Source: Helcobacillus massiliensis
GTDB lineage: Bacteria; Actinomycetota; Actinomycetes; Actinomycetales; Dermabacteraceae
Direction: 5' to 3'
Assembly (NCBI RefSeq): GCF_014191425.1
Contig: NZ_JACHWP010000001.1
Span: 992,001 to 1,056,000 of the forward strand
Length of the DNA stretch: 64,000 nt
The position numbers were made by a program, and so were the translations under genes. A model generated the notes under the pieces. That model had not been told where the DNA came from. It saw only the letters and a list, made by a program, of their open reading frames with translations, and did no database searches. Shown here piece by piece: positions 11,013 through 44,321 of the stretch (positions within the stretch are counted from its first letter, which is position 1; the number at the start of each line of letters is the position of its first letter).

Positions 11013-11067
11013 CCCCCACGCCGACCCCCGCGGCGCCCAGCGTCCGCACCCCCGTCGAGGAGGATCG

Positions 11068-11853
11068 ATGAGAATCGCACTGATGGCCACCTGCCTGGCG
11101 GACGTGATGGCCCCCGATGTGGCCCGCTCCACCGTCGAGCTGCTGGAGCGGCTCGGCCACGAGGTCGTGTTCGACAAGCGGCAGACCTGCTGCGGACAGA
11201 TGCACACCAACACCGGCTACTTCCGCGAGGCCGCGCCCGTGGTCCGGCAGTTCGTGGACGTGTTCGAACCGCAGCTGGAGGACGTGGACGCGGTCGTGAT
11301 GCCGTCGGGCTCCTGCGCCGGCGCCGTCCGCGACCAGCACGCCCTGGTGGCCCGCCGCGCCCGTGATGCCGACCTCGAGGAGCGCGCCGGCCGCGTCAGC
11401 GCGAAGACATACGAACTGTCCGAACTGCTCGTGGACGTGCTGAAGGTGACCGACGTGGGCGCGTACTTCCCTCACACCGTCACCTACCACCCCACCTGCC
11501 ATTCGATGCGCTTCCTGAAGGTCGGTCCGCGCCCCCTGCGACTGCTGCGCGCCGTCGAGGGCATCACCGTGGTGAACCTGCCGGAGTCCGACACCTGCTG
11601 CGGCTTCGGCGGCACCTTCTCGGTGAAGAACGCGGAGACGTCCAACGCGATGGTCACCGACAAAGCGAACAACGTGGTGAAGTCCGGCGCCGACTTCGTG
11701 GTCGCCGGTGACGCCTCCTGCCTGATGAACATCGGCGGCAAGCTCGCCCGGCAGGGGCAGCGGCCACGGCCGATCCACCTGGCGCAGATCCTCAACAGCA
11801 CGAAGGAGAACCCGTTCGTGCCGTCGTCGACTCTTCTGGGGAGGGCCTCATGA
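11068..11853 (+). CDS. lutA: Lactate utilization protein A (Fe-S oxidoreductase)
   Basis: 261 aa. It carries two CCG-type cysteine domains: CCGQMHTNTGYF with a later SGSCAGAVR, and HPTCHSMRF with DTCCGFGGTFSVKN. These bind iron-sulfur clusters and match LutA/LldE of the three-subunit L-lactate dehydrogenase complex that oxidises lactate to pyruvate. GAGGAGGATCG precedes the ATG as ribosome site. The stop overlaps the lutB start in ATGA, so the two are translationally coupled. Confidence 0.95.
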   Translation: MRIALMATCLADVMAPDVARSTVELLERLGHEVVFDKRQTCCGQMHTNTGYFREAAPVVRQFVDVFEPQLEDVDAVVMPSGSCAGAVRDQHALVARRARDADLEERAGRVSAKTYELSELLVDVLKVTDVGAYFPHTVTYHPTCHSMRFLKVGPRPLRLLRAVEGITVVNLPESDTCCGFGGTFSVKNAETSNAMVTDKANNVVKSGADFVVAGDASCLMNIGGKLARQGQRPRPIHLAQILNSTKENPFVPSSTLLGRAS

Positions 11854-13376
11854 CCACCGTGAACCTCGGAATGCCCCGGGTGCGCCCACCGTACGCCTCC
11901 GCCTCGTCGGCGCTGATGGGGGCCGACGGGTTCCGCGACGCCGCGAAGGGCGAACTGCAGGACGATCAGCTGCGCGCCAACCTCGCGCACGCCGCCGGAG
12001 GCATCCGCACCAAGCGCGCCAAGGCAGTGCGCGAACTGCGGGACTTCCAGCAGCTGCGCAGCGCCGGCAGTGCCCTGAAATGGCACGTCACCGACCACCT
12101 CCCGGAGCTGCTGGAGCAGTTCGAGGAGGCGTTCACCGCCGCCGGCGGCACGGTCCACTGGGCGCGCGACGCCGACGAGGCGAACCGCATCGTCACCTCC
12201 CTCGTCCGCGACGCGGGCAGTGAGAAGGTGCTGAAGGTGAAGTCGATGGCCACGCAGGAGATCCGCCTGAACGAGGCCCTCGCCGATGCCGGCATCACCG
12301 CCGTGGAGACGGACCTCGCCGAACTGATCGTGCAGCTCGCCGGGGACACGCCCAGCCACATCGTCGTGCCGGCGATCCACCGCAACCGTCGGCAGATCCA
12401 GCAGCTGTTCCGCGACCATCTCCCGGGCGCGCCCGCTGATCTCGGCGACGACCCGCAGGAGCTGACCGCGGCGGCGCGCCGTTTCCTGCGCGAACAGTTC
12501 CTGCAGATGGACACCGCCATCTGCGGCGCGAACTTCGCGGTCGCGGAGACCGGCACCCTGAGCATTGTCGAGTCCGAGGGCAACGGCCGCATGTGCCTGA
12601 CCCTGCCGTCCACGCTGATCGCGGTGATGGGCATAGAGAAGCTCATCCCCACCTTCCAGGACCTCGAAGTGTTCCTGCAGCTCCTGCCGCGGTCCTCCAC
12701 CGGTGAGCGGATGAACCCGTACACCACGATGTTCACCGGCACGCAGGCGGCCGACGGGCCCGAGAATCTGCACATCGTACTGCTGGACAACGGCCGCTCC
12801 GCGGTCCTGTCCGACCCGCACGGGCGGTCCGCTCTGCACTGCATCCGATGCTCCGCCTGCCTGAACGCCTGCCCCGTGTACGAACGCGCCGGCGGACACG
12901 CCTACGGCTCCACCTACCCCGGCCCCATCGGCGCGATCCTCTCACCCCAGATGACCGGGATGGAGGGCGAGGACAATCCGAACGCCACCCTGCCGTACGC
13001 ATCCTCGCTCTGCGGCGCCTGCTACGACGTGTGCCCCGTGAAGATCAACATTCCTGAGATCCTCGTGCACCTGCGCTCCCGGGATGTCGACGAGCGCGCC
13101 GAGGCCGGCGCCAAGCGCAACCAGTGGGATGCGGCGATGGCCGGGGCGTCGAAGCTGATGAGCAGCCCCGGCACCTACGACGCCGTGGTCCGCGCCTCCG
13201 CCCTCATCGGCCGCGCGAAGCCCCGCGGCAACTTCTCGAACCTGCCGCTGCCGATGATCGGTGACTGGACGCAGTTCCGCGACCTGCCCGTTCCCCGCGA
13301 GTCGTTCCGGTCCTGGTATACGAAGAGGGAGAAGGCTCGGCGCAGCGCCGACGCCTCGAACAAGGAGCAGAAGTGA
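11850..13376 (+). CDS. lutB: Lactate utilization protein B (ferredoxin-like Fe-S protein)
   Basis: 508 aa, the large subunit of the LutABC complex. The N-terminal two thirds is the LUD domain (for example VAETGTLSIVESEGNGR). The C-terminal part has two 4Fe-4S motifs, CIRCSACLNACPVY and CGACYDVCPVKI. The intervening YGSTYPGPIGAILSP is diagnostic for LutB/LldF. It overlaps lutA and lutC by 4 nt each. No lactate permease gene is linked here. Confidence 0.95.
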   Translation: MTTVNLGMPRVRPPYASASSALMGADGFRDAAKGELQDDQLRANLAHAAGGIRTKRAKAVRELRDFQQLRSAGSALKWHVTDHLPELLEQFEEAFTAAGGTVHWARDADEANRIVTSLVRDAGSEKVLKVKSMATQEIRLNEALADAGITAVETDLAELIVQLAGDTPSHIVVPAIHRNRRQIQQLFRDHLPGAPADLGDDPQELTAAARRFLREQFLQMDTAICGANFAVAETGTLSIVESEGNGRMCLTLPSTLIAVMGIEKLIPTFQDLEVFLQLLPRSSTGERMNPYTTMFTGTQAADGPENLHIVLLDNGRSAVLSDPHGRSALHCIRCSACLNACPVYERAGGHAYGSTYPGPIGAILSPQMTGMEGEDNPNATLPYASSLCGACYDVCPVKINIPEILVHLRSRDVDERAEAGAKRNQWDAAMAGASKLMSSPGTYDAVVRASALIGRAKPRGNFSNLPLPMIGDWTQFRDLPVPRESFRSWYTKREKARRSADASNKEQK

Positions 13377-14059
13377 GCGACGCGAAGACCGAGATCCTGC
13401 AGCGCCTGCGCACCGCTCTGGACCAGCCCCGACCGAATCCGATCACCGCGCTCGAGGACGTCCCCCGCGACTACCAGGGCCCCGACGCGAAGGCGGAGAC
13501 CACCACCGGCATCGACAAGGTCCTCGCCGCACTGACGAAGACCCTCACCGAGTACGGGGCGGGCGTGCAGATGGTGGAGGAGGCCGATGTCACCGACACC
13601 ATCGCCGAGCTGCTCGATGAGGGCGCCGTCGCCGTGCACGCCCCTGACCTGCCGGAGGCGTGGCTGCCGTCCGCGCAGGCGCAGCTGGTGGCGGACCACG
13701 GCTCGTTGGACGCCCGCTCCCTCGATGATGTGGACGCCGTCATCACCGGCTGCCACACCGCCATCGCCATGACCGGCACTCTTGCGCTGAAGGACGACGG
13801 CATCGGCGGCCGCCGCATCATCTCCCTCATCCCGGATCATCACATCGTCGTGGTCCGGCCCGAGGACACGGTCGTGGGTGTGCCGGCGTGCGTGCAGCGG
13901 ATGCGTGAGGATGACCCGTCGGCCGCGTGGACCTGGATCTCCGGCCCCAGCGCCACCAGCGACATCGAACTGGAGCGCGTGGACGGCGTGCACGGACCGC
14001 GCCGTCTCGACGTGGTGCTGATCGCCCCGCCCGCGCAGGGCGACCAGGACGCCTCATGA
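13373..14059 (+). CDS. lutC: Lactate utilization protein C (LUD domain)
   Basis: 228 aa from a GTG that overlaps the lutB stop (GTGA). It has a single LUD domain. The segment AVITGCHTAIAMTGTLALKDD followed by RRIISLIPDHHIVVV is the core signature of LutC/LldG. It is the third subunit of the lactate oxidation complex. The stop overlaps the start of the following epimerase gene (ATGA), making a four-gene coupled unit. Confidence 0.93.
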   Translation: MSDAKTEILQRLRTALDQPRPNPITALEDVPRDYQGPDAKAETTTGIDKVLAALTKTLTEYGAGVQMVEEADVTDTIAELLDEGAVAVHAPDLPEAWLPSAQAQLVADHGSLDARSLDDVDAVITGCHTAIAMTGTLALKDDGIGGRRIISLIPDHHIVVVRPEDTVVGVPACVQRMREDDPSAAWTWISGPSATSDIELERVDGVHGPRRLDVVLIAPPAQGDQDAS

Positions 14060-14967
14060 CCGGCACTGCTTCCACCCCGTTCACCGGTGAGCTGATCGAC
14101 CTGGCCGCCGGTGACTACCGCGCCCGCATCGCCGCCGTCGGCGCCGCCGTCCAGTCGCTCACCCTCGCCGGCCGCGACCTCATCCTCCCAGCCCCGGTGG
14201 ATGCTCCCAACGCGGAGTACCGCGGAGCGCTGGTGGCGCCCTGGCCGAACCGGCTGGCCGACGGGGACTACACGTGGCACGGCGCCGACCACCACGTGCC
14301 CGTCACCGAAGCATCCACCCGCACCGCCCTGCACGGCCTGACCTGCTTCACCGCCTTCACCGTACGGGAGCGAGCGGCGGATCGAGCAGCGCTTCACCTG
14401 GACCTGGTGCCGAGCCCCGGCTACCCGTTCCCGCTCAGCATCGACGTCGAGCACATCCTCCACGAGGAGCAGGGTCTGACCACCCGCGTAACGGCGCACC
14501 ACATCGACGTCTCCCTCGGGGGCGGCGCACCTGCCCCCTACGGGGTGTGCCCCCACCCGTACCTCGTCGCCGGAACAGATGATGCCGCCTGCTGGTCCCT
14601 GAACCTGCCGGCGCGCCGCGTGCTCGCTGTGGATGACCGCAAGCTGCCCGCCGATCTCCTGCCCGCTTCGGCGCTGCTCGGCGCCGAAGCGGCGGACGGC
14701 GCCCTGGCGCTCGCCGACGCTGCCCTCGACCATGCGTTCACGGACCTCACCGGGGGCCGGGTTGCGGTCCACTCCCCTGCCGGCACCGGCGCGGCGATCG
14801 CCTTCGATCACTCGCGCCTGCCCTGGGTGCAGGTGTACACCTCCGGCACCGCCGTGGCGGTGGAACCGATGACGTGCCCGCCGAACGCGTTCGCGACCGG
14901 CACCGACGTGATCGCGATCGATGCGGGAGACACTGTCCTGCACGAATGGACCATCGACGGCTGGTGA
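14056..14967 (+). CDS. Aldose 1-epimerase family protein
   Basis: 303 aa from ATG 14056, which overlaps the lutC stop. It is a galactose-mutarotase-like beta-sandwich. ALVAPWPNRLADGDYTWHG and LHGL (catalytic His region), YGVCPHPYLVAG and a late Glu in AVEPMTCPPNAFATG fit the aldose 1-epimerase family. The enzyme interconverts alpha and beta anomers of sugars such as glucose or galactose. The link with lactate oxidation is by co-transcription only and the physiological sugar is unknown. Confidence 0.88.
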   Translation: MTGTASTPFTGELIDLAAGDYRARIAAVGAAVQSLTLAGRDLILPAPVDAPNAEYRGALVAPWPNRLADGDYTWHGADHHVPVTEASTRTALHGLTCFTAFTVRERAADRAALHLDLVPSPGYPFPLSIDVEHILHEEQGLTTRVTAHHIDVSLGGGAPAPYGVCPHPYLVAGTDDAACWSLNLPARRVLAVDDRKLPADLLPASALLGAEAADGALALADAALDHAFTDLTGGRVAVHSPAGTGAAIAFDHSRLPWVQVYTSGTAVAVEPMTCPPNAFATGTDVIAIDAGDTVLHEWTIDGW

Positions 14968-14977
14968 TGCGGCGGGC

Positions 14978-14998
14978 CGACGGCACTCGCCGCCGTCG
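14978..14998. terminator. Weak bidirectional hairpin between the epimerase gene and lsr2
   Basis: CGACGGC pairs with GCCGTCG around a 7-nt loop. It lies in the 42-base gap between two convergent genes. It overlaps one of the GGCCGACGG motif copies, so the pairing could be incidental. Confidence 0.35.
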
Positions 14999-15009
14999 CC
15001 GACGTCAGA

Positions 15010-15336
15010 TCAGCTGCCGTTGGCCTCGTGGTAGGCCTCGCGGATGTCAGCGGCGATGCGGCCGCGGTCGGACACGCGGTAGCCGTTCTCGCGGGCCCAC
15101 TCGCGGATCTTCGCGGTCTCCTTCGCGGTGGTCGGTGCACCGGAGGACCGGCGTGCACGCCCGCCGACGCGACGCGCCGACGCGATCCACAGTCCGAATT
15201 CGCGGTGGAGCTTGTCCACGTTCTCCTCGGACAGATCGATTTCGTAGTTCACACCCTGAAGCGAGAAGTTGATGGTGTCCACTGCCTTGGAGCCGTCGAT
15301 GTCATCGATGAGCTCCACAATCGTCTTACGTGCCAC
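15010..15336 (-). CDS. lsr2: Nucleoid-associated protein Lsr2
   Basis: 108 aa. The GTG at 15334-15336 is chosen: it gives MARKTIVELIDDIDGS, matching the usual MAxK start, and has AAAGGA 9 nt upstream. The in-frame ATG at 15345 has AAAGGA touching it. The N-terminal oligomerisation domain contains VNYEIDLSEENVDKLH. The C-terminal DNA-binding domain contains IREWARENGYRVSDRGRIAADI; the xRGR element that inserts into the AT-rich minor groove is present as DRGR. Lsr2 silences AT-rich, often foreign, DNA. The upstream region is itself AT-rich with repeats (see 15405). Confidence 0.96.
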   Translation of the reverse strand: MARKTIVELIDDIDGSKAVDTINFSLQGVNYEIDLSEENVDKLHREFGLWIASARRVGGRARRSSGAPTTAKETAKIREWARENGYRVSDRGRIAADIREAYHEANGS

Positions 15337-15404
15337 AGTCGTCATTCCTTTGCGCAGGGGATCGTCTAACGCCCCCAGGCTATTCCCTCACCTAGTGAAT
15401 ATCA

Positions 15405-15463
15405 AGAATAGAGGTGAACAATTCGCTGAATGAATGGCGATCTATTCGGATGCGGTCTATTCT
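15405..15463. repeat. GAATAGA repeats in the AT-rich region upstream of lsr2
   Basis: AGAATAGA at 15405-15412 is facing TCTATTC at 15441-15447 and TCTATTCT at 15456-15463. There are therefore two direct copies 15 bp apart plus one inverted copy. The region is much more AT-rich than its surroundings. It could be an operator or an Lsr2 autoregulatory site; that is inference. Confidence 0.4.
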
Positions 15464-15654
15464 CGCCCTTCAGGCGCCGGGCTCTGAGACGGCGAATCGG
15501 GTGAACCGTGATGGAGCTCCCATTCGCGTTCCGCTTCCCGCTCCGCGGCGCGCTGACCGCGGTCCGCGCGGACGATCGACCGCAGCACGAACCAGAACAG
15601 CAGGCCCACACCGATCGACGGCACCAGGGCCCCGAGCTCGAACCAGATGTCCAT
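15457..15654 (-). CDS. Small single-span membrane protein downstream of lysS
   Basis: 65 aa. One membrane helix (LGALVPSIGVGLLFWFVL) is followed by a charged helix rich in Arg/Glu and a Ser/Pro/Glu tail. The ATG at 15654 begins 2 nt after the lysS stop; a GTG at 15660 overlaps the stop and is an alternative. Either way translation is coupled to lysS. I do not recognise a function. Small proteins like this commonly follow lysS in related actinobacteria. Confidence 0.65.
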   Translation of the reverse strand: MDIWFELGALVPSIGVGLLFWFVLRSIVRADRGQRAAEREAEREWELHHGSPDSPSQSPAPEGRE

Positions 15655-15656
15655 CG

Positions 15657-17162
15657 TCACTTCACCAGCGGGAACAGGATCGTCTCACGCACACCCAGGC
15701 CGGTGAGCGCCATCAGCAGTCGGTCCATGCCCATGCCCATGCCGCCGGTGGGCGGCAGCGCGTACTCCATCGCCTCGAGGAAGTCCTCGTCCAGGCGCAT
15801 CGCCTCATCGTCGCCCTGAGCCGCCAGGCGGGCCTGCTGCTCGAAGCGCTCACGCTGCACCACCGGGTCGATCAGCTCGGAGTAGGCGGTGGCGAGCTCG
15901 AAGCCGCGCACATACAGGTCCCACTTCTCCACCACGCCGTCCTTCGAGCGGTGCGCACGAGTCAGGGGCGAGGTCTCCGTCGGGAAGTCCATCACGAAGG
16001 TCGGCTCATACAGGTCGTCCTCGGCGAGGTGCTCGAACAGCTCCTCCACCAGTTTGCCGTGGCCGTACTTCGGGTGGTCGAGATCCAGGTCGAGCTCGCG
16101 GGCGATCGCGCGCAGCTCATCGACAGTCGTGGACGGGGTGATGTCCCGACCCAGCTTTTCGCTGACCGTTTCGTACATGCCGATGCGCTTCCATTCACCA
16201 CCGAAGTCGTATTCGGTGCCATCGGCCAGGGTGACGGTGGTGGAGCCGAAAGCGTCCAGAGCGGCCTGCTGCACGAGATTCTGCGTCAGGTCCGCCATCG
16301 TGTTGTAGTCGGCATAGGCCTGGTAGGCCTCGAGCATGGAGAATTCCGGGGCGTGAGTGGAATCGGCGCCCTCATTGCGGAAGTTGCGGTTGATCTCGAA
16401 GACCTTCTCCATTCCGCCGACGGCTGCGCGCTTGAGGAACAGTTCGGGTGCGATCCGCAGGAACAGTTCCATGTCGTAGGCATTCATATGCGTCACGAAT
16501 GGACGGGCGGCGGCGCCCGATGGAACGGCCTGCAGCATGGGGGTCTCCACCTCCATGTAGCCGCGGTTGTGGAAGTTGTTGCGCAGCGACCACATGACAT
16601 CGGCGCGCAGCTTCGCGGTGGCCCGAGCCTGCTCGCGGACGATCAGGTCCACGTAGCGGCGGCGCACCCGCGACTCCTCGGAGAGGTCGGCGAACAGCAC
16701 CGGTAGGGGCCGCATCGCCTTGGCGGCCATGGTCCATTCGGTGGCGAACACGGACAGCTCGCCGCGACGGGACTTCCCGATCGGGCCTTCGAAGAACACG
16801 TGGTCGCCGAGGTCCACATCGGCCTTGTACTGGGCGAAGCGCTCCTGACCCACCTTCGCGAGGGACAGCATCACCTGCAGGCGTTCGCCGGAACCGGCCT
16901 GGATGGTGGCGAAGCACAGCTTGCCGGTGTTGCGCTGGAAGACGACTCGGCCGGCGACGGCGACGACCGTGTCGGTCTCCTCGCCGTCCTCGAGGTCGGC
17001 GTACGTCGCCCGCACGTCCTCGATGGTGTCCTTGACCGGCACGGAGACGGGGTACGCCTCCTCCCCGCGGTCCAGGAGTCGCTGCCGCTTGGCGCGGCGC
17101 ACACTGATCTGGTCGTTGGTGCTCTCTGCTTCTGCCTGGGGGGCGTTCTGGTCAGTCGTCAT
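15657..17162 (-). CDS. lysS: Lysyl-tRNA synthetase, class II
   Basis: 501 aa. The N-terminal OB-fold anticodon-binding domain covers about residues 55-160 ([21 protein letters not shown]). The class II catalytic core has motif 2 [26 protein letters not shown] and motif 3 [16 protein letters not shown]. It charges tRNA-Lys. A GACAAT hexamer sits 6 nt before the ATG with no Shine-Dalgarno, so it probably has its own leaderless promoter although it follows panC by 96 bases. Confidence 0.97.
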
Positions 17163-17168
17163 GGGGTC

Positions 17169-17174
17169 ATTGTC
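17169..17174 (-). promoter_or_regulatory. -10 hexamer of a probably leaderless lysS transcript
   Basis: GACAAT on the minus strand, 6 nt from the ATG at 17162. The same hexamer and spacing occur before the DUF4032 gene at 33157. Confidence 0.5.
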
Positions 17175-17258
17175 TCAGCTTCCCCGAGCGGACCCATGCA
17201 GGGGTGAGCGACGCGGCACGGTGAGTGTGCGCACCTTCACCCGCCGCGCACCGAGTGG

Positions 17259-18095
17259 TCAGGTGCCGACGGTGATCTCAGCGTTGTCGAGCAGGCGCAC
17301 GCCCTGCACCCGCGCCGCGACGATCACGACCGCGTCCCCGGTGAAGGACGAGTCGATCGGCTCGAAGGTGGCGGGGTCGACCGCTTCGGCGTAGTCCCAC
17401 TGGACGTCAGTGCTGCTGGTGGCGCGCGCCTGTTCGAGAGCGTGCAACAGCTCGGGGGCCGGCATCCGTCGGCCGCTCAGATCCTTCAGCAGGCCGGACA
17501 GAGCCAGCGCGTGCCAGCGTCCGTCCTCGTCGAGGTAGGCGTTGCGGGAGGAGCGGGCGAGGCCGGAGCCCTCCCGGGAGATGGGGGCGGGGATGATGTC
17601 GACGGGAACGTTGAAGTCCCGGACGAGGCGGCGGATGACGGCGAGCTGCTGCGCGTCCTTCTGCCCGAACACGGCGATGTCGGGCCGGATGATGGTGAAC
17701 AGCTTCAGCACCACGGTGGCGACGCCGTTGAAGTGCCCCGGGCGCATGGCGCCTTCGAAGACGGTGCCGATGCGTCCCACGTCCACCTGGAACGGCTCCT
17801 CGGCGGGGTACATCTCCTCGGCGCTGGGGGCGAAGAGGTAGTCGGCGAGGCCGTCGACCTTCGCGAGGTCGCCGTCGAGGTCGCGGGGGTAGCGGTCGTA
17901 GTCCTCGTTCGGACCGAACTGCAGGGGATTGACGAAGTCGGAGACGATGAGGACGTCGGACTGCTCGCGGGCGCGGCGCATCAGGGTGAGGTGCCCGTCG
18001 TGCAGGGAGCCCATGGTGGGCACGAGGCCCACCCGGCCGGTGAGGGAGGCGCGGATGTCGCGCATCTCGGCGATGGTGGTGATCAGGCGGGTCAC
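17259..18095 (-). CDS. panC: Pantoate--beta-alanine ligase
   Basis: 278 aa from a GTG overlapping the preceding stop (GTGA). It joins pantoate and beta-alanine with ATP to form pantothenate. The HIGH-like ATP site is VPTMGSLHDGHLTLMRRA. FVNPLQFGPNEDYDRYPR and FGQKDAQQLAVIRRLVRD are the other family signatures; the KMSKS-like segment is SSRNAYL. The beta-alanine supplier panD is in the same window at 43914, unlinked. Its coupling to the DUF2520 gene is discussed there. Confidence 0.97.
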   Translation of the reverse strand: MTRLITTIAEMRDIRASLTGRVGLVPTMGSLHDGHLTLMRRAREQSDVLIVSDFVNPLQFGPNEDYDRYPRDLDGDLAKVDGLADYLFAPSAEEMYPAEEPFQVDVGRIGTVFEGAMRPGHFNGVATVVLKLFTIIRPDIAVFGQKDAQQLAVIRRLVRDFNVPVDIIPAPISREGSGLARSSRNAYLDEDGRWHALALSGLLKDLSGRRMPAPELLHALEQARATSSTDVQWDYAEAVDPATFEPIDSSFTGDAVVIVAARVQGVRLLDNAEITVGT

Positions 18096-19000
18096 TCGGG
18101 GTCCTCCGTGGTGTCTGTTCCCGTGGCGGGGTCGGTGTCGGCGAGCAGCCGGGCGATGGTGCGCTTCTTCGGCTCGTCAAGGTCGGTGAGGGCGAGCGCG
18201 CCGGCGGCGAGGGCCCGGTAAGTGCGGTCCACCTCCGGGCGGCGCATCTCTCGGATGGCGTCGAGGTGCTCGCCGACGGTGCCGGCGTCTCCGCGCATGA
18301 CGGGCCCGGTGAGGGCGGCGGGGCCGGTGCGGAGGGTCTCATCGAGTGCGGCGTGCAGCAGCGGGGAGACGAGACGGGCGGGGTCCTCCACCCCGAGCTC
18401 GTCCAGGATGGACAGCACCTGGTTGACCAGGACGACGAGGTGGTTGGAGCCGTGGGCGAGGGCCATGTGGTAGGCACCGCGGTCCGCTTCACCGATCTCC
18501 ACGGGTTCGCCCTCCATCTCGACGACGAGCGCTTTGGCGATCGGCAGGAACATGGGGGCGGCGGTAACGGCCCAGGGGCAGCCGATGAGGCGCTTGAGGT
18601 CGAGGGACATCCCGGTGAACGTCATCGCGGGGTGAAGGGCCAGCGTGATCGCGCCCTTCTCCTGCAGGGGCTTCAGCACCTCGATGCCGTAGCGGCCGGA
18701 AGTGTGGGCGATGATCTGACCGCCGGGAACGACCCCGGCGGTCGCGAGTCCTTCGGCGAGGTCGGCGAGGGCGTCGTCGGGCACCGCGAGGACCACCAGT
18801 TCGCTTCGTTCCAGGATGGTGGGCGCATCGAGGATGGGGATGCCGGGCAGCAGGTCGTCGGCGCGCTGCCGGGAGGCGTCGCTGACGGCGGCGACCCCGG
18901 TGATGGCGTGACCGGCGGCGCGCAGCGCGGAGCCGACGACGGCGCCGACCCGACCGGCGCTGATGATGCCGACGCCCATGCGGTGTCCTGGTGTGCTCAC
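18092..19000 (-). CDS. Rossmann-like / DUF2520 oxidoreductase
   Basis: 302 aa. The GTG at 19000 overlaps the stop of the PH-domain gene (GTGA), which fixes the start. The N-terminal Rossmann domain reads MGVGIISAGRVGAVVGSALRAAGH, an NADP-type GxGxxG variant, with VVLAVPDDALADLAEGL. The C-terminal DUF2520 helical domain contains HPAMTFTG and ALAHGSNHLVVLVNQVL. The overall plan resembles ketopantoate reductase. The gene is fused by overlap to panC, so a role in pantothenate synthesis is plausible but unproven. A TACCGT hexamer 6 nt before the GTG could give an internal promoter. Confidence 0.85.
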   Translation of the reverse strand: MSTPGHRMGVGIISAGRVGAVVGSALRAAGHAITGVAAVSDASRQRADDLLPGIPILDAPTILERSELVVLAVPDDALADLAEGLATAGVVPGGQIIAHTSGRYGIEVLKPLQEKGAITLALHPAMTFTGMSLDLKRLIGCPWAVTAAPMFLPIAKALVVEMEGEPVEIGEADRGAYHMALAHGSNHLVVLVNQVLSILDELGVEDPARLVSPLLHAALDETLRTGPAALTGPVMRGDAGTVGEHLDAIREMRRPEVDRTYRALAAGALALTDLDEPKKRTIARLLADTDPATGTDTTEDPE

Positions 19001-20604
19001 GCCTCCACGGTAGCGCGCGCACCGGACCGGCGGGGACGCGCCCACTGCTCGCGGTGAGCGAGACGACGCCTCGTCGCCGCATCGTTGTGCAGGACGGGCA
19101 GGAGCCGCAGGGCGTCAGCGGTCGGCAGGGTGAGCACCTCGGAGTCGTCGGCAGTGGTGACCCTGAGCGGCAGGAGCCCGATGCGGCGGTCGATGGGGCC
19201 CTCGAGGGCTTCGACCGTCTGGATCCGGTCCCGGGGGATGATGCGGATCCGCTTGACGAGGGTTCCGCTGCGCACCAGCACAGCATGGGGCGTCAGCATG
19301 ACGCTGGTGAACCGGCGTCCGAGCGGGAACAGCCAATGGTCGGGGCGGATGCCGGGCAGCTCGGCGGCTGGGACGCGCAGCATGCGGGTGAGCATGGCGA
19401 CGTCGTCCTCGGCGGAGGTCTCGGCAGCAGCATCCGCAGCGACATCCTCCGGGCCGGGGCCGCCTGCGCCCCATGCTTCAGGGGGAATGGGGAGGCCGAC
19501 GGGTGCCAGCATGTGGTCGATGCTGCGCACCAGTTCATCGCCGGTGCCGACGGGAAGGATCGCGCCGTTCTCGTCGTCGTCCTCCGCTCCGGCGGTGGCC
19601 ACATCCATCTGCACCCAGGCGGGGTCCCGCCACAGGAGGGGCTGGCGCAGGGTGGCGGTCTGGATCCGGTCAGCGGAGAGGTTGTCGGAGCGGGTGGTGA
19701 ACAGGCCGCGCCGGGCGCGCAGGCCGGCGTCGGTGGAGCGGGAGGTGAAGCCCCAGCCCTTTTCGATGCGGTCGAGGATCAGCTTCGGTCCGGCGATGAC
19801 CGCGGTGAGAACCGGGATCAGCGCGCGCATGCTGAATCCGTCGAGGACCATCGCCGTGATGGGGCCGATGGCGACCAGCACGGTGAGAATCGGCACGAAC
19901 CACATGAACGGGTCGCGCATCAGTGCGTGCAGGAGCCGCTGGGTGGGGATCTGCGCGAGCAGGGTGCCGGTGGTGACGCCGTCGAGCAGGGTGCCGCGGA
20001 TCCGGTCCGCGGTGCTGGCCTGCTCCTGTTCCTCGGGATCGGTGCCCGGCAGCTCCGGCACCGACTCGGCATCGGCGTCGTCGGAGGACGAAGCCGCGAT
20101 CTGCAGGATCCGTCGGCGCACCTCCTCCGCGCGGGCGGAGGAGAGGTAGGTGAGGTCCAGGTGGGAATCGCCGCCGCCGACGAGCTCCACCCGCACCTTC
20201 GCCAGACCCAGCAGGCGCGGAACCAGCGGCCGGTGGATGGAGACGGAGTCGATGCGTCCGCGGGGCGCGGTGCGGCGCGTGGTGGTGATGAACCGGGACC
20301 GCAGGAAGACCCCGTCGGGCACCACAGCGTAGGCGGTGAGGCGCCACCTGATGAACGACCCGGCGACGAACAGCAGAACGACGCCCGCGAGGATGCCGAG
20401 GGCGATCAGCAGGCGGGTGAGGGTGAACTCGTCGATCAGCTCGCTGATGTTCTGTGCGGTGAGGATCGCGATGGCGCCGGCCACCACCTGCCAGCCCGTC
20501 AGCAGCGGGGTGAGCGGGTGCAGGCGCTGGAACTCGGTGTCCGGCGGGTCCTGGCGCTGCTCGGCGAGCTGCTCCGGAGTGTCCGGGGCGGTCTCCTCGG
20601 CCAT
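18997..20604 (-). CDS. PH-domain (bPH2/YdbT-type) membrane protein, large
   Basis: 535 aa. Three bacterial PH-like domains are visible. The first follows two membrane helices (VVAGAIAILTAQNISELI, LLIALGILAGVVLLFVAG) and reads VVPDGVFLRSRFITTTRR. The second begins after another helix pair near residue 245. The third reads VMLTPHAVLVRSGTLVKRIRIIPRDRIQTVEA. Function is unknown; the family (YdbS/YdbT) is linked to envelope stress and secretion in Bacillus. It overlaps the small PH gene by 1 nt (TGATG) and the DUF2520 gene by 4 nt. Confidence 0.85.
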   Translation of the reverse strand: MAEETAPDTPEQLAEQRQDPPDTEFQRLHPLTPLLTGWQVVAGAIAILTAQNISELIDEFTLTRLLIALGILAGVVLLFVAGSFIRWRLTAYAVVPDGVFLRSRFITTTRRTAPRGRIDSVSIHRPLVPRLLGLAKVRVELVGGGDSHLDLTYLSSARAEEVRRRILQIAASSSDDADAESVPELPGTDPEEQEQASTADRIRGTLLDGVTTGTLLAQIPTQRLLHALMRDPFMWFVPILTVLVAIGPITAMVLDGFSMRALIPVLTAVIAGPKLILDRIEKGWGFTSRSTDAGLRARRGLFTTRSDNLSADRIQTATLRQPLLWRDPAWVQMDVATAGAEDDDENGAILPVGTGDELVRSIDHMLAPVGLPIPPEAWGAGGPGPEDVAADAAAETSAEDDVAMLTRMLRVPAAELPGIRPDHWLFPLGRRFTSVMLTPHAVLVRSGTLVKRIRIIPRDRIQTVEALEGPIDRRIGLLPLRVTTADDSEVLTLPTADALRLLPVLHNDAATRRRLAHREQWARPRRSGARATVEA

Positions 20605-21104
20605 CACAGCGCCGCCATCTGCTCGGCGGCTTCGCGCAGGATCACCGCGCGCAGATGCTCGGACTGCGCCTTCTCCAGGCCGGGGATGGTGATGTCGCTT
20701 CCGGCGGTCTTCACCGTGATGGTGGACAGGCCGTAGCGGCGCTCGATGGGTCCCTCGTCGATCTCGATGTCCTGCACGCGTCCGAACGGCACCGCCTCGA
20801 TGCTGCGGAACATGATGCCGGTGCGCAGCAGAACGTCGTGCTCGCGGACCGCGTAGGCGATGGCGCGGGTGCGTCGACCGAGCAGCAGAACGGACTGCGC
20901 CACCAGCAGGTAGAGCGGAAGCGCGAACAGGTGGGTCCACCAGGGCCACTCGAGCCAGGCGCACAGGACGTTCCAGCCTGCGGCGAGCCCGAGGAAGATC
21001 AGCCACCGGATGAGGCCGGAGACGCGGCGGGCGGCGAGGAGCTTCGGGGACACGGGCGTGAGGGTGTGGTCCTCGCCCGGGAGGGGGATCGCGGAGCGGG
21101 TCAT
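20604..21104 (-). CDS. PH-domain (bPH2/YdbS-type) membrane protein, small
   Basis: 166 aa. Two membrane helices (LIRWLIFLGLAAGWNVLCAW and THLFALPLYLLVAQSVLLL) precede one PH domain, AYAVREHDVLLRTGIMFRSIEAVPFGRVQDIEI, with the conserved RVQDIE and YGLSTITV elements. It pairs with the larger PH protein encoded 1 nt downstream, and the two probably form a membrane complex. Confidence 0.87.
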   Translation of the reverse strand: MTRSAIPLPGEDHTLTPVSPKLLAARRVSGLIRWLIFLGLAAGWNVLCAWLEWPWWTHLFALPLYLLVAQSVLLLGRRTRAIAYAVREHDVLLRTGIMFRSIEAVPFGRVQDIEIDEGPIERRYGLSTITVKTAGSDITIPGLEKAQSEHLRAVILREAAEQMAAL

Positions 21105-21175
21105 GCGGCCATCATGTCACCGCTGACGGGGGCTCCCCTCCTCCGATGGTCGAAGAGAGTGCCGACGTGCGTCGC

Positions 21176-21703
21176 TCAGGCCGGTGGGGCGTCCGAGACG
21201 GTGGGTGAGGGCCCCTCTGTCTCGGCATCGCCCTCCTCCGGCGGCAGCTTGCCCCACCGTTCAGCGATGAATCCGACGATCGCGAGGACGGCGGCGCTGA
21301 GAGCGGCGAACCCAGTGGGCAGCAGCGCCCCGGTGAGGGTGCCCGTTCCGTTGATCAGCAGGAACACCAGTTCTCCTCCGAAGAATCCGGCGACGAGGGA
21401 CCCGGTGATGATGGCGGCGCGGGCGAACAGCAGAGTGCGGAACGCGGTCACCATGTCGAGTTCGTGGCGGCGCGGCGCTGCGGTGTGCTCGCGTCGGCGC
21501 TCCTCGCATTCCACCATGTAGCGCCGCACCCGCAGCGCGAAGGTGAGGAGGACACCGGCGAGGGCGAGCATGGTGAGACCGGACATCCAGCCCGGCAGCG
21601 GCAGCGGCTGCCCGGCGGAGCCCAGCAGGTGGCCGAGGCCGAGCCCGAGAGCGGCGGCGATCAGCAGCAACCAGATCGCCGTGGTGACCGGGGTGGCTCG
21701 CAC
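21176..21703 (-). CDS. DUF3180 family membrane protein
   Basis: 175 aa from the GTG at 21701-21703, four bases after the folB-folK stop. It reads VRATPVTTAIWLLLIAAALGLGLGHLLGSAGQ, the typical DUF3180 opening, with four membrane helices in two hairpins. LLFARAAIITGSLVAGFFGGELVFLL is the conserved third helix region. The function is unknown, but actinobacteria keep this gene just after folK. The acidic tail is variable. Confidence 0.82.
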   Translation of the reverse strand: MRATPVTTAIWLLLIAAALGLGLGHLLGSAGQPLPLPGWMSGLTMLALAGVLLTFALRVRRYMVECEERRREHTAAPRRHELDMVTAFRTLLFARAAIITGSLVAGFFGGELVFLLINGTGTLTGALLPTGFAALSAAVLAIVGFIAERWGKLPPEEGDAETEGPSPTVSDAPPA

Positions 21704-21707
21704 GCGC

Positions 21708-22700
21708 TCAGCCGTCCTCGGTCGGCGCTGGGGCGCTGTGCGCGGGCCCACCGGCGGGGGCCGACGGGTACCCGACCACCTCGATCCCGGGACGGATGCC
21801 GTCCCGGTCCTGGGCATCGGCGAGCAGATCCGGCACTCCGCGGCTGCGGCCCGGCAGGGTGATGGGTGTGCCGAGGCGCTCCTCGAGGTCAGCGAGGGGA
21901 TGCAGCACGAATGCTCGCTCGTGGGCGCGGGGGTGCGGGAGGGTCAGTGCCGGGTCGTTCAGCTGGAGCTCACCCCAGGTGATGACGTCGACGTCCAGGG
22001 TGCGCGGTCCCCAGCGGACGATGCGCCGGCGCTGCGCGACCTGTTCGATGTGCTGGGCGAGGTCGAGCAGCTGCCATGGGCTGAGGGTGGTGTCCACGGC
22101 GATGGCGGCGTTGAGGAAGCTGTCCTGCTCCACCCCGCCGACGGGGTCCGTCTCGATTGTGGCGGACGCGGCCACCAGGTCGATGCCGTGGGCCCGTTCC
22201 AGCTCCTGCAGCGCCAGCTGCAGGTAGGCCGCGCGGTCCCCCATGTTGGAGCCGACGGCGAGGATCGCCCGCACCGGTGGGGCGTCCCGCTGGATCTGCA
22301 CGAACACGGTGTCGAAGCGCATGTCGATCGGCGCGGTCGGTTTGCTGATCCGCACCATGCAGGAGCGCACCATCGGGTGCTCTGCATGGATCCGCTCGGC
22401 GATGCGCGCCGCCAGTGTTTCGATGAGGTCCACGCTCGGGGAGTCGATGACGTCCTGGATGATCGCGGCGACGTCCGCGTAGGACACGGTGCGGTCCAGC
22501 GCGTCATCACGACCGGCGGAGCGGGTGTCCACCGACAGTCGGCAGTCGACGCGGAAGTCGTGGCCGTCGATCTTCTCCTGCTCCAGGACGCCGTGCGGGC
22601 CGTGAACGGTGAAGCCGTCCATGCCGATGACGTCCAGGGCCTCCGGCCGCCAGGCCGGCACCCCGTGGGAGAGGATCTGTTCACTGTTCAGCTCAGGCAT
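21708..22700 (-). CDS. folBK: Bifunctional dihydroneopterin aldolase / HPPK (FolB-FolK fusion)
   Basis: 330 aa in one frame. Residues 1-125 are FolB (DGFTVHGPHGVLEQEKIDGHDF, VSYADVAAIIQDV, LIETLAARIAERI), which cleaves dihydroneopterin to 6-hydroxymethyl-dihydropterin. From about residue 143 the FolK part begins, ILAVGSNMGDRAAYLQLAL, with the pyrophosphokinase signature RWGPRTLDVDVITWG and LPHPRAHERAFVLHPLADL. Fusing the two puts consecutive steps of folate synthesis on one chain. The start ATG at 22698-22700 overlaps the folP stop by 8 nt. Confidence 0.95.
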   Translation of the reverse strand: MPELNSEQILSHGVPAWRPEALDVIGMDGFTVHGPHGVLEQEKIDGHDFRVDCRLSVDTRSAGRDDALDRTVSYADVAAIIQDVIDSPSVDLIETLAARIAERIHAEHPMVRSCMVRISKPTAPIDMRFDTVFVQIQRDAPPVRAILAVGSNMGDRAAYLQLALQELERAHGIDLVAASATIETDPVGGVEQDSFLNAAIAVDTTLSPWQLLDLAQHIEQVAQRRRIVRWGPRTLDVDVITWGELQLNDPALTLPHPRAHERAFVLHPLADLEERLGTPITLPGRSRGVPDLLADAQDRDGIRPGIEVVGYPSAPAGGPAHSAPAPTEDG

Positions 22701-23661
22701 CGGCGCCTCCGGCGACCTCGGCGGCACGGTGGGCCGACGGGTACTCGCCGTCGGCCAGGTGCGCATTGAACCCGTCGGCCTCCCCCACGCGGCCCTGCAG
22801 GGCGCTGACCACGCGGATGCCGGCGGCGGTGGCTGCGACATCGTGCACACGCACCGCCCAGGTGCCGCGGGCGGCGCACAGGGTGGAGATCGCCGCGGTG
22901 GCGGCGTCGCGGTCGCCGCCGAGGGCGGTGACGAAGCGCTTGCGGGACACCCCGACCAGCAGCGGCAGGCCCAGCTGCTCCAGAACGGCGAGCTCGCGCA
23001 GCAGGTCCCAGTTCTGCCGCCCCTTCTTCGAGAACCCGAATCCGGGGTCGAGGACGAGGGAGCCCTCCTCCACACCGGCGTCGCGGACGCGGTCGATCTG
23101 CTCGGAGAGTTCGCGGGCGACATCGCGAGCGACGTCCTCGTAGTCGGTCATGGCGTTCATGACGTCGCTGTGGCCGCGCCAGTGCATGCCGATGAACACC
23201 GGCGGGGCGCTGAGAGAGGTGCGCGCTGCGGCCACCACCGGTGCCATCTGCTCATCGGCGAGACCAGCGGAGACGTCGTTGACGATGAGGGCGCCGGCCT
23301 TCACGGACTCCTGAGCGACGGATGCGCGCATGGTGTCCACGCTGATCACGATGCCGCGCTCAGCGAGATCGCGGACCACGGGAATCACGCGGCGCAGCTC
23401 TTCGTCCTCGGTGACGCGCTCACCGCCGGGGCGGGTGGATTCGCCGCCGATGTCGATGATGTCGGCGCCGTCGGCGATGAGCTTCTCAGCGTGGGCGACC
23501 GCGTCACCGCGCTCGTTGTGGGCTCCGCCGTCGGAGAACGAATCCGGCGTCACGTTGAGCACGCCCATGGTGAGGGTGCGCCCGGCGTGCATCATCGCCT
23601 CCGGCAGTCCCTGCGGGGACGTCCAGGCGGGCGCCGATGCGGCATCGAGGAAGCCCGGCAT
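22693..23661 (-). CDS. folP: Dihydropteroate synthase
   Basis: 322 aa. It condenses 6-hydroxymethyl-dihydropterin pyrophosphate with p-aminobenzoate and is the sulfonamide target. Signatures are LTMGVLNVTPDSFSDGG, ADIIDIGGESTRPGG, VNDVSAG, and LDPGFGFSKKGRQNW, followed by GVSRKRFV. The ATG shares one base with the folE stop (TGATG). A C-terminal extension (SALQGRVGEADGFNAH onward) is slightly longer than in E. coli. The 3' end carries two of the GGCCGACGGGT copies. Confidence 0.96.
   Translation of the reverse strand: MPGFLDAASAPAWTSPQGLPEAMMHAGRTLTMGVLNVTPDSFSDGGAHNERGDAVAHAEKLIADGADIIDIGGESTRPGGERVTEDEELRRVIPVVRDLAERGIVISVDTMRASVAQESVKAGALIVNDVSAGLADEQMAPVVAAARTSLSAPPVFIGMHWRGHSDVMNAMTDYEDVARDVARELSEQIDRVRDAGVEEGSLVLDPGFGFSKKGRQNWDLLRELAVLEQLGLPLLVGVSRKRFVTALGGDRDAATAAISTLCAARGTWAVRVHDVAATAAGIRVVSALQGRVGEADGFNAHLADGEYPSAHRAAEVAGGADA
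22732..22780. repeat. Densest cluster of the dispersed GGCCGACGGGT motif
   Basis: Copies lie at 22732-22742 (plus) and 22770-22780 (minus), with a shorter GGCCGACGG copy on the minus strand at 22748-22756. The other full 11-mers start at 5916, 11921, 19494, 21759, 46138, 47095, 59940 and 62717 (plus), and at 6506, 10951, 13913, 31371, 43471, 45436, 50079 and 51708 (minus). All lie within genes and none within the IS copies. The role is unknown. Confidence 0.75.
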
Positions 23662-24278
23662 CAGCGGCTGACCTGGCTGGTGATCAGCGACATCGCCTCT
23701 GCGCGGGTGGCCTCTTTCTTCAGCTGGCCGCGCACGGCGCTGGTGACGGTGGCCGAACGGGGCGAGCGGACGCCGCGCATCGACATGCACATGTGCTCGG
23801 CCTCCATCACCACGATCGCCCCGAGGGCGCTGATCTCCGACATGATGGCGTCCGCGATCTGGCTCGTAAGGCGCTCCTGCACCTGCGGGCGCGCCGCGTA
23901 GCCCTCGACCACGCGGGCGAGCTTCGACAGGCCCACCACCTTCCCGCTGGGGCCGGGGATGTACCCAACGTTCGCGGTGCCGTGGAACGGCAGCAGGTGG
24001 TGTTCGCACATCGAATAGAACGCGATGTCGCGGATGATGACCATCTCGTTGTGCTCAACATCGAACTGTCGCGCCAGGTGCTCCTTCGGGTCCTCGTGGA
24101 GGCCGCGGAACACTTCGGCGTACATGCGGGCGACCCGACCCGGGGTGTCCAGGAGTCCGTCGCGCTGGGGGTCCTCACCGACGGCGGCGAGGATCTCCTT
24201 CACCGCTGCTTCGATGCGGTCGAGGTCGACCGGCGACTCACCGGGGTTCGGGGTGCTCGGCTCGGTGGTCACGCTCAC
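23661..24278 (-). CDS. folE: GTP cyclohydrolase I
   Basis: 205 aa from a GTG overlapping the ftsH stop (GTGA). It converts GTP to 7,8-dihydroneopterin triphosphate, the first step of folate synthesis. [12 protein letters not shown] and the later [15 protein letters not shown] hold the zinc-binding Cys and His residues. [23 protein letters not shown] is also diagnostic. It is the first gene of the folE-folP-folBK run. Confidence 0.97.
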
Positions 24279-26299
24279 GCTCCTGGGATCGGGGGCTCGT
24301 CGCCGCCGGGCTGCGGCAGCTCGGGTGGGGTGGGGCTCAGCGGTTCGCCGGCGCCCTTGTTCTCGGTGCCGTCGGGCTCGCCGCTGATCTGCCCGGGTGC
24401 GCCGCCCACGAGGGGCTCGTGGAACACGGGCCGGGTGGAGGAGGACTGCCAGACCTCGCGCGGCGCGCGCTTCTTCACGTTCGCGAAGATGTCCGCGAGC
24501 TGGTGCTCGTCCAGGGTCTCCTTCTCCAGCAGCTCCTCCACGAGGCGGTCGAGGACATCGCGGTTCTCGCGGATGATCTGCCAGGCCTCATCGAGGGCGT
24601 TGTCGAGCAGGCGGCGGATCTCGTTGTCGATCAGCTCCGCGGTCTCCGGGGAGTAGCGCGGGCCCTGGCCCTGCTGCATGCCGACGAACACTTCGTCCTG
24701 GTCGCTGGCGAGCGCCACCTGGCCCACCACATCGCTCATACCGAGCTGGGTGACCATGGTGCGGGCGATCTTCGTGGCGTTCTGCAGGTCCGAGCTGGGG
24801 CCGGTGGTGACGTCGTGGAAGATGCCCTCCTCCACGGCGTACCCGCCCATCGCGTAGGCGAGGCGGTCCAGCAGCTCATTGCGGGACTGGTAGTTGCGGT
24901 CCTGGGTGGGGACCACCATCGTGTAGCCGCCGGCGCGGCCGCGCGGCAGGATCGTCACCTTCGTGACGGGGGCGGAGTTGTTCAGCGCCGCCGCCACGAG
25001 CGCGTGGCCGCCCTCATGGTAGGCGGTCATCTGGCGCTCGCGCTCCGTCATGACCTTCGAGTACCGCTGCGGACCCATGGAGACGCGGTCGATCGCCTCG
25101 TCCAGGGCGCGGTTGTCGATGATCTGGTTGCCGCTGCGGGCGGTCAGCAGCGCCGCCTCGTTGAGGACGTTCGCGAGGTCAGCGCCGGACATGCCGATGG
25201 AGCGGCGGGCGATGTTCTCGAAGTCGATGTCATCGGCGAAGGGCTTGCCCTTGGCGTGGACCTGGAGGATCTTCAGGCGGCCCTTAAGGTCGGGCGCCTC
25301 CACTGCGATCTGGCGGTCGAAGCGGCCGGGGCGCAGCAGCGCCGGGTCGAGGATGTCCACGCGGTTGGTGGCAGCGATGAGGATGACGTTCTGGTTCTCC
25401 TCGAAGCCGTCCATCTCCACGAGCATCTGGTTCAGGGTCTGCTCGCGCTCGTCGTGACCGCCGCCCATGCCGGCGCCGCGGTGGCGACCGACGGCGTCGA
25501 TCTCATCGATGAAGATGATGGCGGGGGCGTTCTCCTTCGCGGTGGAGAACAGGTCGCGCACGCGCGAGGCGCCGACTCCGACGAACATCTCCACGAAGTC
25601 CGAACCGGAGATGGAGTAGAACGGCACGCCCGCCTCACCGGCGACGGCCTTGGCGATGAGAGTCTTACCCGTTCCCGGCGGGCCGTACAGCAGCACGCCC
25701 TTGGGGATCTTCGCCCCGACGGCCTGGTAGCGCTCCGGGGAGACGAGGAACTGCTTGATCTCGTCGAGCTCCTCGACCGCCTCCTGGGCACCGGCGACGT
25801 CCGCGAAGGTGACCTTCGGGGCCTCCTTGTTGAACAGCTTCGCCTTGGACTTGCCGAACTGCATGGCGCGGCCGCCGCCCTGGGCGTTCATGATGAGGAA
25901 CCAGAACAGGCCGAGGAACAGCAGCAGCGGCAGGACGGAGAAGGCGAGGGTGGACAGCCAGGACGACCGCGCGATCTCGTCGGTGTAGCCCTTCTTCGGG
26001 GCGGCGTCCTCCACGGCCTTGACGACGGCGTCACCGCGGGCGGTGACGTACGGGAACTGGACCTTGGTGCCCTTGTCCTCGAACTCCTCGGTGAGGACGA
26101 GGTTCACCTGCTGCTGGTTGCCGTCGATGATCTCGGCCTGCTCGACCTTCTTGGAGTTCAGCAGCTCCAGGCCCTGCTGGGTGTCGATCTTCTGGTACCC
26201 GCCGGAGCCGAAAAGGCTGAACAGGAGGAAGGCGAGCACCGCGAGGGCGATGATCGCAACCGCCGCGGATGGGACGCGGGCCTTCTTTTTCTTTGCCAT
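24275..26299 (-). CDS. ftsH: ATP-dependent zinc metalloprotease FtsH
   Basis: 674 aa. Two N-terminal membrane helices (about residues 11-31 and 115-137) bracket an extracytoplasmic domain. The AAA module has Walker A GPPGTGKT, Walker [12 protein letters not shown], and the SRH region [17 protein letters not shown]. The zinc site is [12 protein letters not shown]. It degrades membrane and unstable cytosolic proteins as a hexamer. The last 40 residues are Pro/Gly-rich. The first residues [13 protein letters not shown] are basic, fitting the inside-positive rule. It follows hpt after 78 bases. Confidence 0.97.
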
Positions 26300-26377
26300 A
26301 GATGAAATGCGCTATTCCGATTCGTGGATGATGATGGGGCTACGGTAGCCGCCCGTGCTGGGCTCTGGCGAGTGGGA

Positions 26378-26932
26378 TCAGTCCGTGTACGCCGAGGGCT
26401 TGAGAACCCCGATGTACGGCAGGTTCCGGTACTGTTCTGCGTGATCCAGGCCATAGCCCACAACGAACTCGTTGGGGATGTCGAAGCCGCAGAAGCGGAC
26501 GTCGATGTCGACCTTGACGGCGTCGGGCTTGCGCAGCAGGGTGCAGATCTCCACGCTCTTGGGGCCGCGAGAGCGGAGGTTGGCGATCAGCCAGGAGAGG
26601 GTGAGCCCGGAGTCGATGATGTCCTCGACGATGAGGACGCGCCGACCGGTGATGTCCGCGTTGAGGTCCTTGATGATGCGGACCACGCCGGAGGACTTGG
26701 TGCCGCTGCCGTAGGAGGACACGGCCATCCAGTCCATGTCGATCGGCAGGTCGATGCGGCGGGCGAGGTCGGCGACGATCATGACGGCGCCCTTGAGCAC
26801 GCCGACGAGCAGGGGCGGCTCATCCTGGTACGCCTCCGCGATCTCGCGGCCGAGCTCGGCCACGCGGTCGGCGATCTGCTGTTCGGTCAGCAGGATGCTC
26901 TGCACATCCGGATGGTGGTCCTGGCTGGTCAC
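26378..26932 (-). CDS. hpt: Hypoxanthine phosphoribosyltransferase
   Basis: 184 aa. It salvages hypoxanthine and guanine to IMP and GMP using PRPP. The PRPP-binding loop is [20 protein letters not shown], and [18 protein letters not shown] and [20 protein letters not shown] are the other family segments. The ATG overlaps the tilS stop by 4 nt. The tilS-hpt-ftsH order is conserved widely in Gram-positive bacteria. Confidence 0.96.
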
Positions 26933-29567: not shown

Positions 29568-29604
29568 CCGCTGCCTCCCATCGAACGCGAACCCGTCGGG
29601 CATC

Positions 29605-29610
29605 ACAGTA
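29605..29610 (-). promoter_or_regulatory. -10 element of the dacB-tilS-hpt run
   Basis: TACTGT on the minus strand, giving a leader of about 30 nt that contains the GGGAGG ribosome site. No good -35 was recognised. Confidence 0.35.
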
Positions 29611-29727
29611 GCGGATCGGCGATGCTGCAGGCCGGCTGGGGATCACGGGGGTAGGGTGGACCCAATTGATGCGCCGGCCCTAGGTCGCGCGCCTGAGACC
29701 TTTTCCGTTGAGCCAATGGAGTCAGAC

Positions 29728-43913: not shown

Positions 43914-44321
43914 ATGATGCGAACACTGATGACCTCGAAGATCCACCGCGCCACCGTCACCCAGGCGGACCTGCACTATGTCGGCTCCGTGACGGTGGAC
44001 GCCGACCTGCTGGACGCCGCCGGACTCATGGAGAACGAGAAGGTCGCGATCGTCGACATCACCAATGGTGCCCGTCTCGAGACCTATGTCATCCGCGGGG
44101 AGCACGGCACCGGCGAGATCAAGGTGAACGGCGCGGCCGCCCACCTGGTGCATCCCGGTGACCTCGTCATCCTCATCGCCTACGGGCTGATGGATGACGC
44201 GGAGGCCGCGGTGCATGAGCCGCGCGTGGTGCACGTGGACGAGAACAACCGCATCGTGGGCATCGGGACCGATCCCGCGCAGCCCGTCCCGGGGATGCCG
44301 GGCCAGATCGCGTCGCGGTGA
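43914..44321 (+). CDS. panD: Aspartate 1-decarboxylase (pyruvoyl enzyme)
   Basis: 135 aa. The ATG at 43914 makes the self-cleavage site fall at Gly24-Ser25 (HYVGSVTVD), exactly as in the E. coli enzyme. [13 protein letters not shown] and [20 protein letters not shown] are conserved. It makes beta-alanine for PanC. GACAAT lies at 43899-43904, nine bases before the start, so the leader is very short or absent. It is followed after 14 bases by the AEC gene. Confidence 0.97.

Follow-up and report, generated by a model that had tools for sequence, protein, structure and literature searches.

Which enzyme reduces ketopantoate to pantoate in Helcobacillus massiliensis is the question raised by a DUF2520 gene that overlaps panC in the window, the whole stretch of 64,000 nucleotides analysed here. 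The gene very probably encodes a PanG-type ketopantoate reductase (probability about 0.85), a function supported by homology to the DUF2520 protein of a panBCD operon; three further lines of support are the signature residues, gaps in the pathway of relatives, and the coordinated way in which decay and replacement occur within the class. A preliminary description had proposed it as the missing reductase of pantothenate synthesis. The reductase role is upheld by this evidence, whereas 'missing' is correct only in part: no panE was found, yet ilvC is present.

The DUF2520-panC locus and the pathway genes of the genome

The DUF2520 gene and panC overlap by four bases (...CCCGAGTGACC...), GTGA being common to the GTG start of panC and the TGA stop of the DUF2520 gene (Table 1). 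This overlap, already noted in the preliminary description, is confirmed and fits translational coupling, but the claim that it forces co-translation is too strong: the overlap is likewise 4 bases in Tsukamurella, while an Arthrobacter has a 41-base gap. The order on the minus strand is ftsH, folE, folP, folB-folK, a DUF3180-like gene, PH-domain genes, DUF2520, panC, lysS and lsr2, with names assigned by analogy with the annotated Tsukamurella and Arthrobacter loci. In Tsukamurella (L066), panD and coaX are inserted between panC and lysS. A promoter and terminator scan gave no signal above chance, and no tRNA was found in positions 10000-30000.

Table 1 Features of the locus, in window coordinates
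Feature	Position	Strand	Basis
DUF2520 gene (putative PanG type)	18092..19000	-	Start GTG 19000 or ATG 18979; stop TGA 18094-18092; PF10727+PF10728, signature residues kept, AlphaFold2 pLDDT 92.9
panC, pantoate--beta-alanine ligase	17259..18095	-	GTG start 18095; PF02569 E 1.3e-91; TIGR00018 above cut-off
GTGA overlap (4 bases) of DUF2520 stop and panC start	18092..18095	-	Sequence
Predicted N-terminal NADP-binding Rossmann part	18629..18982	-	PF10727, residues 5-122 of P0001; strand-helix alternation in the model
C-terminal helical DUF2520 domain with YH, N, TGPxxRGDxxTxxxH	18206..18580	-	PF10728, residues 139-263 of P0001; signature
panD, aspartate decarboxylase, distant from the panC locus	43914..44318	+	tblastn match extent; 66% identity to Tsukamurella PanD over 135 aligned positions
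lysS, next gene downstream in the conserved order fol-...-DUF2520-panC-lysS	15657..17162	-	ORF; similar order in Tsukamurella L066
Open frame with the folB-folK region of the upstream folate cluster (gene boundaries approximate)	21708..23123	-	ORF; Tsukamurella and Arthrobacter in the same order

The host assembly (2.6 Mb, 99.9% complete) contains panB (C1:820399), ilvC (C1:449140) and panC, as well as panD, which lies in the window as previously described. The earlier statement that panE is absent now extends to the whole genome: PF08546, which marks the ApbA_C-type panE, has no match at E ≤ 0.001, and both PF02558 matches belong to proteins whose sequences were read as ProC and GpsA. Thus, the check suggested with the original proposal, a search of the genome for panE or ilvC, finds IlvC present and does not find PanE.

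Domains, fold and residue signature of the DUF2520 protein

Two Pfam domains, PF10727 (E 1.9e-39) and PF10728 (E 5.9e-33), are recognised in the protein beyond their curated cut-offs, and no NCBIfam model reached its cut-off. The nearest solved folds to its AlphaFold2 model (pTM 0.84, 40-row alignment) are 3d1l_B (Z 22.0, rmsd 2.6, 252 aligned) and 2i76_B (TM1727; Z 20.3, rmsd 2.7, 241 aligned). Close after these in Foldseek ranks 3dfu, the related fold of Cgl2689 of Corynebacterium glutamicum (26% identity over 221 aligned residues, Z 18.0). The 3-hydroxyisobutyrate, prephenate and arogenate dehydrogenases, ketol-acid reductoisomerases and imine reductases give Z 17-19. The fold supports a NAD(P)-dependent 6PGDH-like dehydrogenase but says nothing about the substrate. 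PanE/ApbA and IlvC, which passages of PMC11487621 and PMC4353338 describe as able to catalyse ketopantoate reduction, could perform the same reaction and belong to the same broad superfamily, but the window protein matches neither the PanE/ApbA domains PF02558 and PF08546 nor PF01450 (KARI_C, IlvC) at E ≤ 0.1. Its description as a mirror of PanE is therefore accurate for the general 6PGDH-like layout and inaccurate for the domains, and the nearest folds are 3d1l and 2i76.

A link between DUF2520 and the panB, panC and panD genes occurs outside the class. On an Enterococcus faecium plasmid (L062:4986-7953), DUF2520, panB, panC and panD are four consecutive genes flanked by insertion sequences, and the DUF2520 protein aligns with the window protein over 250 positions at 20% identity (two-sequence E 1e-21). 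This unit is apparently a mobile vitamin B5 pathway; Enterococcus accounts for 102 of the 123 plasmid records that match the window protein. An alignment of the E. faecium protein with Monoglobus and Legionella relatives served as query for further relatives; it yielded 211 candidate stretches, of which 152 were confirmed and the best 80, mostly from Clostridia, were kept. In these best 80 of 152, panB occurs within the retrieved flanks (at most about 4 kb either way) in 74 and directly downstream on the same strand within 400 bp in 71, and panB, panC and panD are all present in 61; one query protein comes from a pan operon, so the 80 are a non-independent sample for the panB link. Six (L090, L099, L111, L117, L136 and L146) have no panB, panC or panD nearby, some of them lying near contig ends.

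Among 49 genomes of the 80 relatives, surveyed on contigs of at least 3 kb, 32 lack ApbA_C, nine lack IlvC and seven lack both, although completeness is not given and single absences could be gaps. The seven are L074 (Asaccharospora irregularis), L075, L101, L110, L133 (Thermohalobacter berrensis), L139 (Alkalithermobacter paradoxus) and L141 (Tissierella pigra); all have DUF2520-panB-panC, and six also have panD. A control, Thermotoga maritima, carries panB, panC, DUF2520 and IlvC but gave no match to ApbA_C.

The 74 panB-linked relatives yielded a signature, HxSG, HP, YH, N and TGPxxRGDxxTxxxH, which was derived here and is not a published definition. Near-invariant in these panB-linked relatives outside the class are D73, H97, S99, G100, H121, P122, Y175, H176, N184, G230, P231, R234, D236, T239, H243 and Y259 (P0001 numbering), and the window protein retains all signature positions. 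In profile alignments, TM1727 retains HxSG, HP, YH, N and TGPxxRGD, and 3d1l lacks S99 and H121. The first Rossmann glycine (P0001 residue 12; window 18959-18961, minus strand) is Ser in the window protein and in 16 of 133 other class proteins; a Ser found in 17 of 134 is evidently tolerated.

The core residues H121, H176, N184, R234 and D236 are kept in 129 of the 134 class genomes with DUF2520, and panB and panC are present in all 129. The five exceptions are G024, G022, G072, G090 and G062. Two of these five lack the genes, against 0 of 129 (Fisher test, p 0.001), a value that is descriptive only because it is post hoc, with residues chosen after the alignment was viewed and kinship ignored. 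Outside the class, two of the best 80 of 152 relatives deviate: L145 (N184G) and L084 (D236A), the derived open frame of L084 being shorter than its tblastn match at the end. At position 184, G062 has L and L145 has G, and pan genes adjoin both; with N184 left out of the core set, G022 and G062 would score as intact. In G062 (L037:5788-7290, plus strand), N184L occurs despite a complete pan operon, and a single open frame joins DUF2520 (PF10728) to PanD (PF02261), followed by panB and panC. This frame may be a fusion; an internal PanD start is a possible alternative.

Distribution, decay and replacement in the class

In a sample of 148 genomes of the class, DUF2520 was found in 134, ApbA_C in 86, panC in 145, panB in 146 and IlvC in 146. 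At least 101 of the 134 have panC directly downstream of DUF2520 on the same strand, a lower bound, as 19 of the remaining 33 had only 144-525 bases fetched downstream; adjacency this frequent is not due to chance. In a quick tree of 79 of 230 rows with long branches, no starred clade of half the rows or fewer contains the window protein, which falls within larger starred groups of class proteins, separate from the Clostridial ones.

The 14 genomes without DUF2520 are G017, which also lacks panC, and 13 genomes of one family, f24 (13 of 13 in the set, 1.2-2.2 Mb; for example G034, G087 and G123), which keep panB, panC and IlvC. Seven of the f24 genomes have no ApbA_C match and six have weak ones, of which the single one checked (G034) is GpsA. 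Judged from these matches, PanE is probably absent from this family and IlvC may be its sole ketopantoate reductase. The count of 86 of 148 is thus an upper bound for PanE, of which ApbA_C is an imperfect marker (G034 matches weakly through GpsA, and C. glutamicum also matches). ApbA_C matches of at least 77 bits occur in 34 class genomes, 31 of which also carry an intact DUF2520, and 77 of the 129 intact-signature genomes have some ApbA_C match while 52 have none. PanE-type matches and intact DUF2520 therefore often coexist. Gaps in IlvC within the class were rejected as proof: only G006 and G125 of 148 lack it, the gap in G125 is probably an assembly artefact (its ilvN match ends 4 bases from a contig end), and G006, a 230-contig assembly without IlvC and ilvN, was set aside.

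G024 and G022 are the only class genomes without panB; both also lack panC, and both keep DUF2520 as an open frame. In the single-contig genome G024 (L036:5504-7997), the protein carries S99C/H176Q/N184D/T239A/H243Q/Y259H, and lysS now lies directly 3' of DUF2520, panC being gone. The changes in G022 are D73E/N184D. In family f5, a DUF2520 copy without the signature adjoins lysS at the ancestral place in six of six genomes, with folate genes upstream in five; the sixth stretch stops at a contig end. In group g6 (G072 and G090; L038 and L043), panC remains between the decayed DUF2520 and lysS, and a strong ApbA_C match lies elsewhere (E 5e-25 and 2e-24). PanE may have replaced DUF2520 function here, with the caveat that an ApbA_C match alone does not prove PanE. 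In group g7 (G081, G108, G117 and G135; L249, L250, L251 and L252), panC has been lost from the old locus. These four genomes carry another DUF2520 gene far from that locus; its protein retains all five core residues, with signature changes confined to H243 and/or Y259, and falls well away from the vertically inherited actinobacterial branch. This gene is the first of a DUF2520-panC-panD-panB operon in three of the genomes and of DUF2520-panC-panB in G117. An ApbA_C match was additionally found in G135.

The decayed f5 copies have also lost the C-terminal TGPxxRGD motif, yet their frames are open in six of six. Pairwise dN is 0.12-0.38 and dS 0.56-0.87 (Nei-Gojobori), which suggests that these copies are under constraint. 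Together with the open frames in G022 and G024, which lack the pathway, the six retained copies indicate that the locus may have another role. One specific version, which we consider unlikely, is that actinobacterial PanG combines ketopantoate reduction with a further function at the folate-lysS locus that is non-catalytic, the old copy being kept as a pseudo-enzyme after takeover by PanE or a second PanG or after loss of the pathway. It draws on the six open f5 frames beside lysS, with dN below dS, and on G024 and, less clearly, G022.

Probable ketopantoate reduction by DUF2520 proteins and its alternatives

A ketopantoate reductase named PanG was reportedly described by Miller et al. in 2013, with FTT1388, EF1861 and homologues in C. 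difficile and Coxiella. A passage of PMC4572677 (2015) gives Corynebacterium ulceribovis, which lacks panE, a DUF2520 oxidoreductase called PanG-like, with homologues EF1861, FTT1388 and a C. difficile protein, and states that the protein was shown in Francisella to turn 2-dehydropantoate into pantoate. In excerpts, PMC5449765 and PMC4207893 refer to PanG as a new reductase and place homologues of it in Coxiella and C. difficile, PMC6593275 treats PanE and PanG as alternatives, PMC9903615 describes panB, panG and panC of Wolbachia, and in PMC8557817 a protein of Rhodococcus appears under the name 'Ketopantoate reductase PanG'. The B. subtilis 'PanG' (YkpB) was rejected as a name clash: a passage of PMC11487621 groups YkpB orthologously with PanE, and B. 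subtilis, a control, has no PF10728 match. A PanG function for DUF2520 is thus not new, dating from PanG in 2013 and the PanG-like protein of C. ulceribovis in 2015; new here are the decayed but retained copies, the replacement and the DUF2520-PanD open frame. No paper testing an actinobacterial DUF2520/PanG member was recognised among the open-licence papers listed by the literature searches.

The window gene has PF10727 and PF10728, the signature residues and a genetic link to panC. It shares the signature with relatives from other phyla, of which that of E. faecium heads a panBCD operon; its likeness to FTT1388 and EF1861 is drawn from descriptions in citing passages. It differs in belonging to an actinobacterial branch, in lying between folate genes and lysS with panB elsewhere, and in sharing only 18-30% identity with relatives outside the class. 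Rv3603c of Mycobacterium tuberculosis (COG5495), also a panC neighbour, is likened to it by description. A passage of PMC3317503 (2012) assigns Rv3603c to the pantothenate operon, treats it as a COG5495 gene whose function is unknown and guesses at a regulator, and one of PMC6710366 reports Rv3603c, PanB and CoaX as more abundant in a leuD panCD mutant. The naming of Rv3603c conflicts: an excerpt of PMC7770189, a 2020 review of the pathway as a tuberculosis drug target, mentions it once, as coaX.

As a PanG-type enzyme (COG5495, PF10727+PF10728), the window protein would be an NADPH-dependent 2-dehydropantoate (ketopantoate) 2-reductase. Its N-terminal Rossmann domain would bind NADPH, and ketopantoate would occupy the cleft towards the helical DUF2520 domain, where the near-invariant Arg234 probably holds the carboxylate. 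Hydride would be transferred to the 2-oxo carbon, and a proton would come from His121 and/or His176 together with Asp236 and, in most cases, Asn184 and His243. Co-production with PanC would let pantoate pass straight into pantothenate synthesis, with IlvC as a likely backup.

Points against this function are IlvC, which could perform the step and occurs in the host and in 146 of 148 class genomes, and the 13 of 148 genomes, all f24, that manage with panB, panC and IlvC but no DUF2520. They fit a quite improbable alternative in which pantoate comes from IlvC and the DUF2520 protein serves the folate and pantothenate genes as partner or regulator, the idea printed in 2012 for Rv3603c (a passage of PMC3317503); retention of decayed copies with dN below dS also agrees with it. 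For C. glutamicum, a passage of PMC4353338 citing Merkamm 2003 reports IlvC as the only ketopantoate reductase and as compensating for missing panE. However, this species, a control, has no PF10728 match, in which its Cgl2689 differs from the window protein, and hence offers no test of an intact protein; as an argument against PanG it was set aside. It does have an ApbA_C match. Also against IlvC as the sole reductase, the catalytic-looking residues are conserved across phyla and altered in genomes that have lost the pathway or possess a different candidate for the reductase, and seven genomes with a panB-linked relative lack both IlvC and ApbA_C matches.

That the protein reduces a different 2-oxo acid or an imine, its adjacency to panC reflecting an unrelated link, is highly improbable. 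The fold is indeed common to 3-hydroxyisobutyrate dehydrogenase, imine reductases, prephenate dehydrogenase and ketol-acid reductoisomerase, and some DUF2520 genes, those of Legionella, Monoglobus and the Arthrobacter pDCT5 and Novosphingobium plasmids, have no annotated pan gene within 5 kb. However, the gene directly 3' is panB in most of the best 80 of 152 relatives and panC in no fewer than 101 of the 134 class genomes, which, together with the single DUF2520-PanD frame in G062, speaks against this reading.

If ketopantoate reduction by DUF2520 proteins is true for this class, the pantoate step would be filled in many actinobacteria with panB and panC but no PanE, as in the 52 of 129 intact-signature genomes without an ApbA_C match. 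DUF2520, still the Pfam name, would gain a job in actinobacteria, including for the panC neighbour Rv3603c, and the cases of decay and replacement would provide a direct genetic test of this function.
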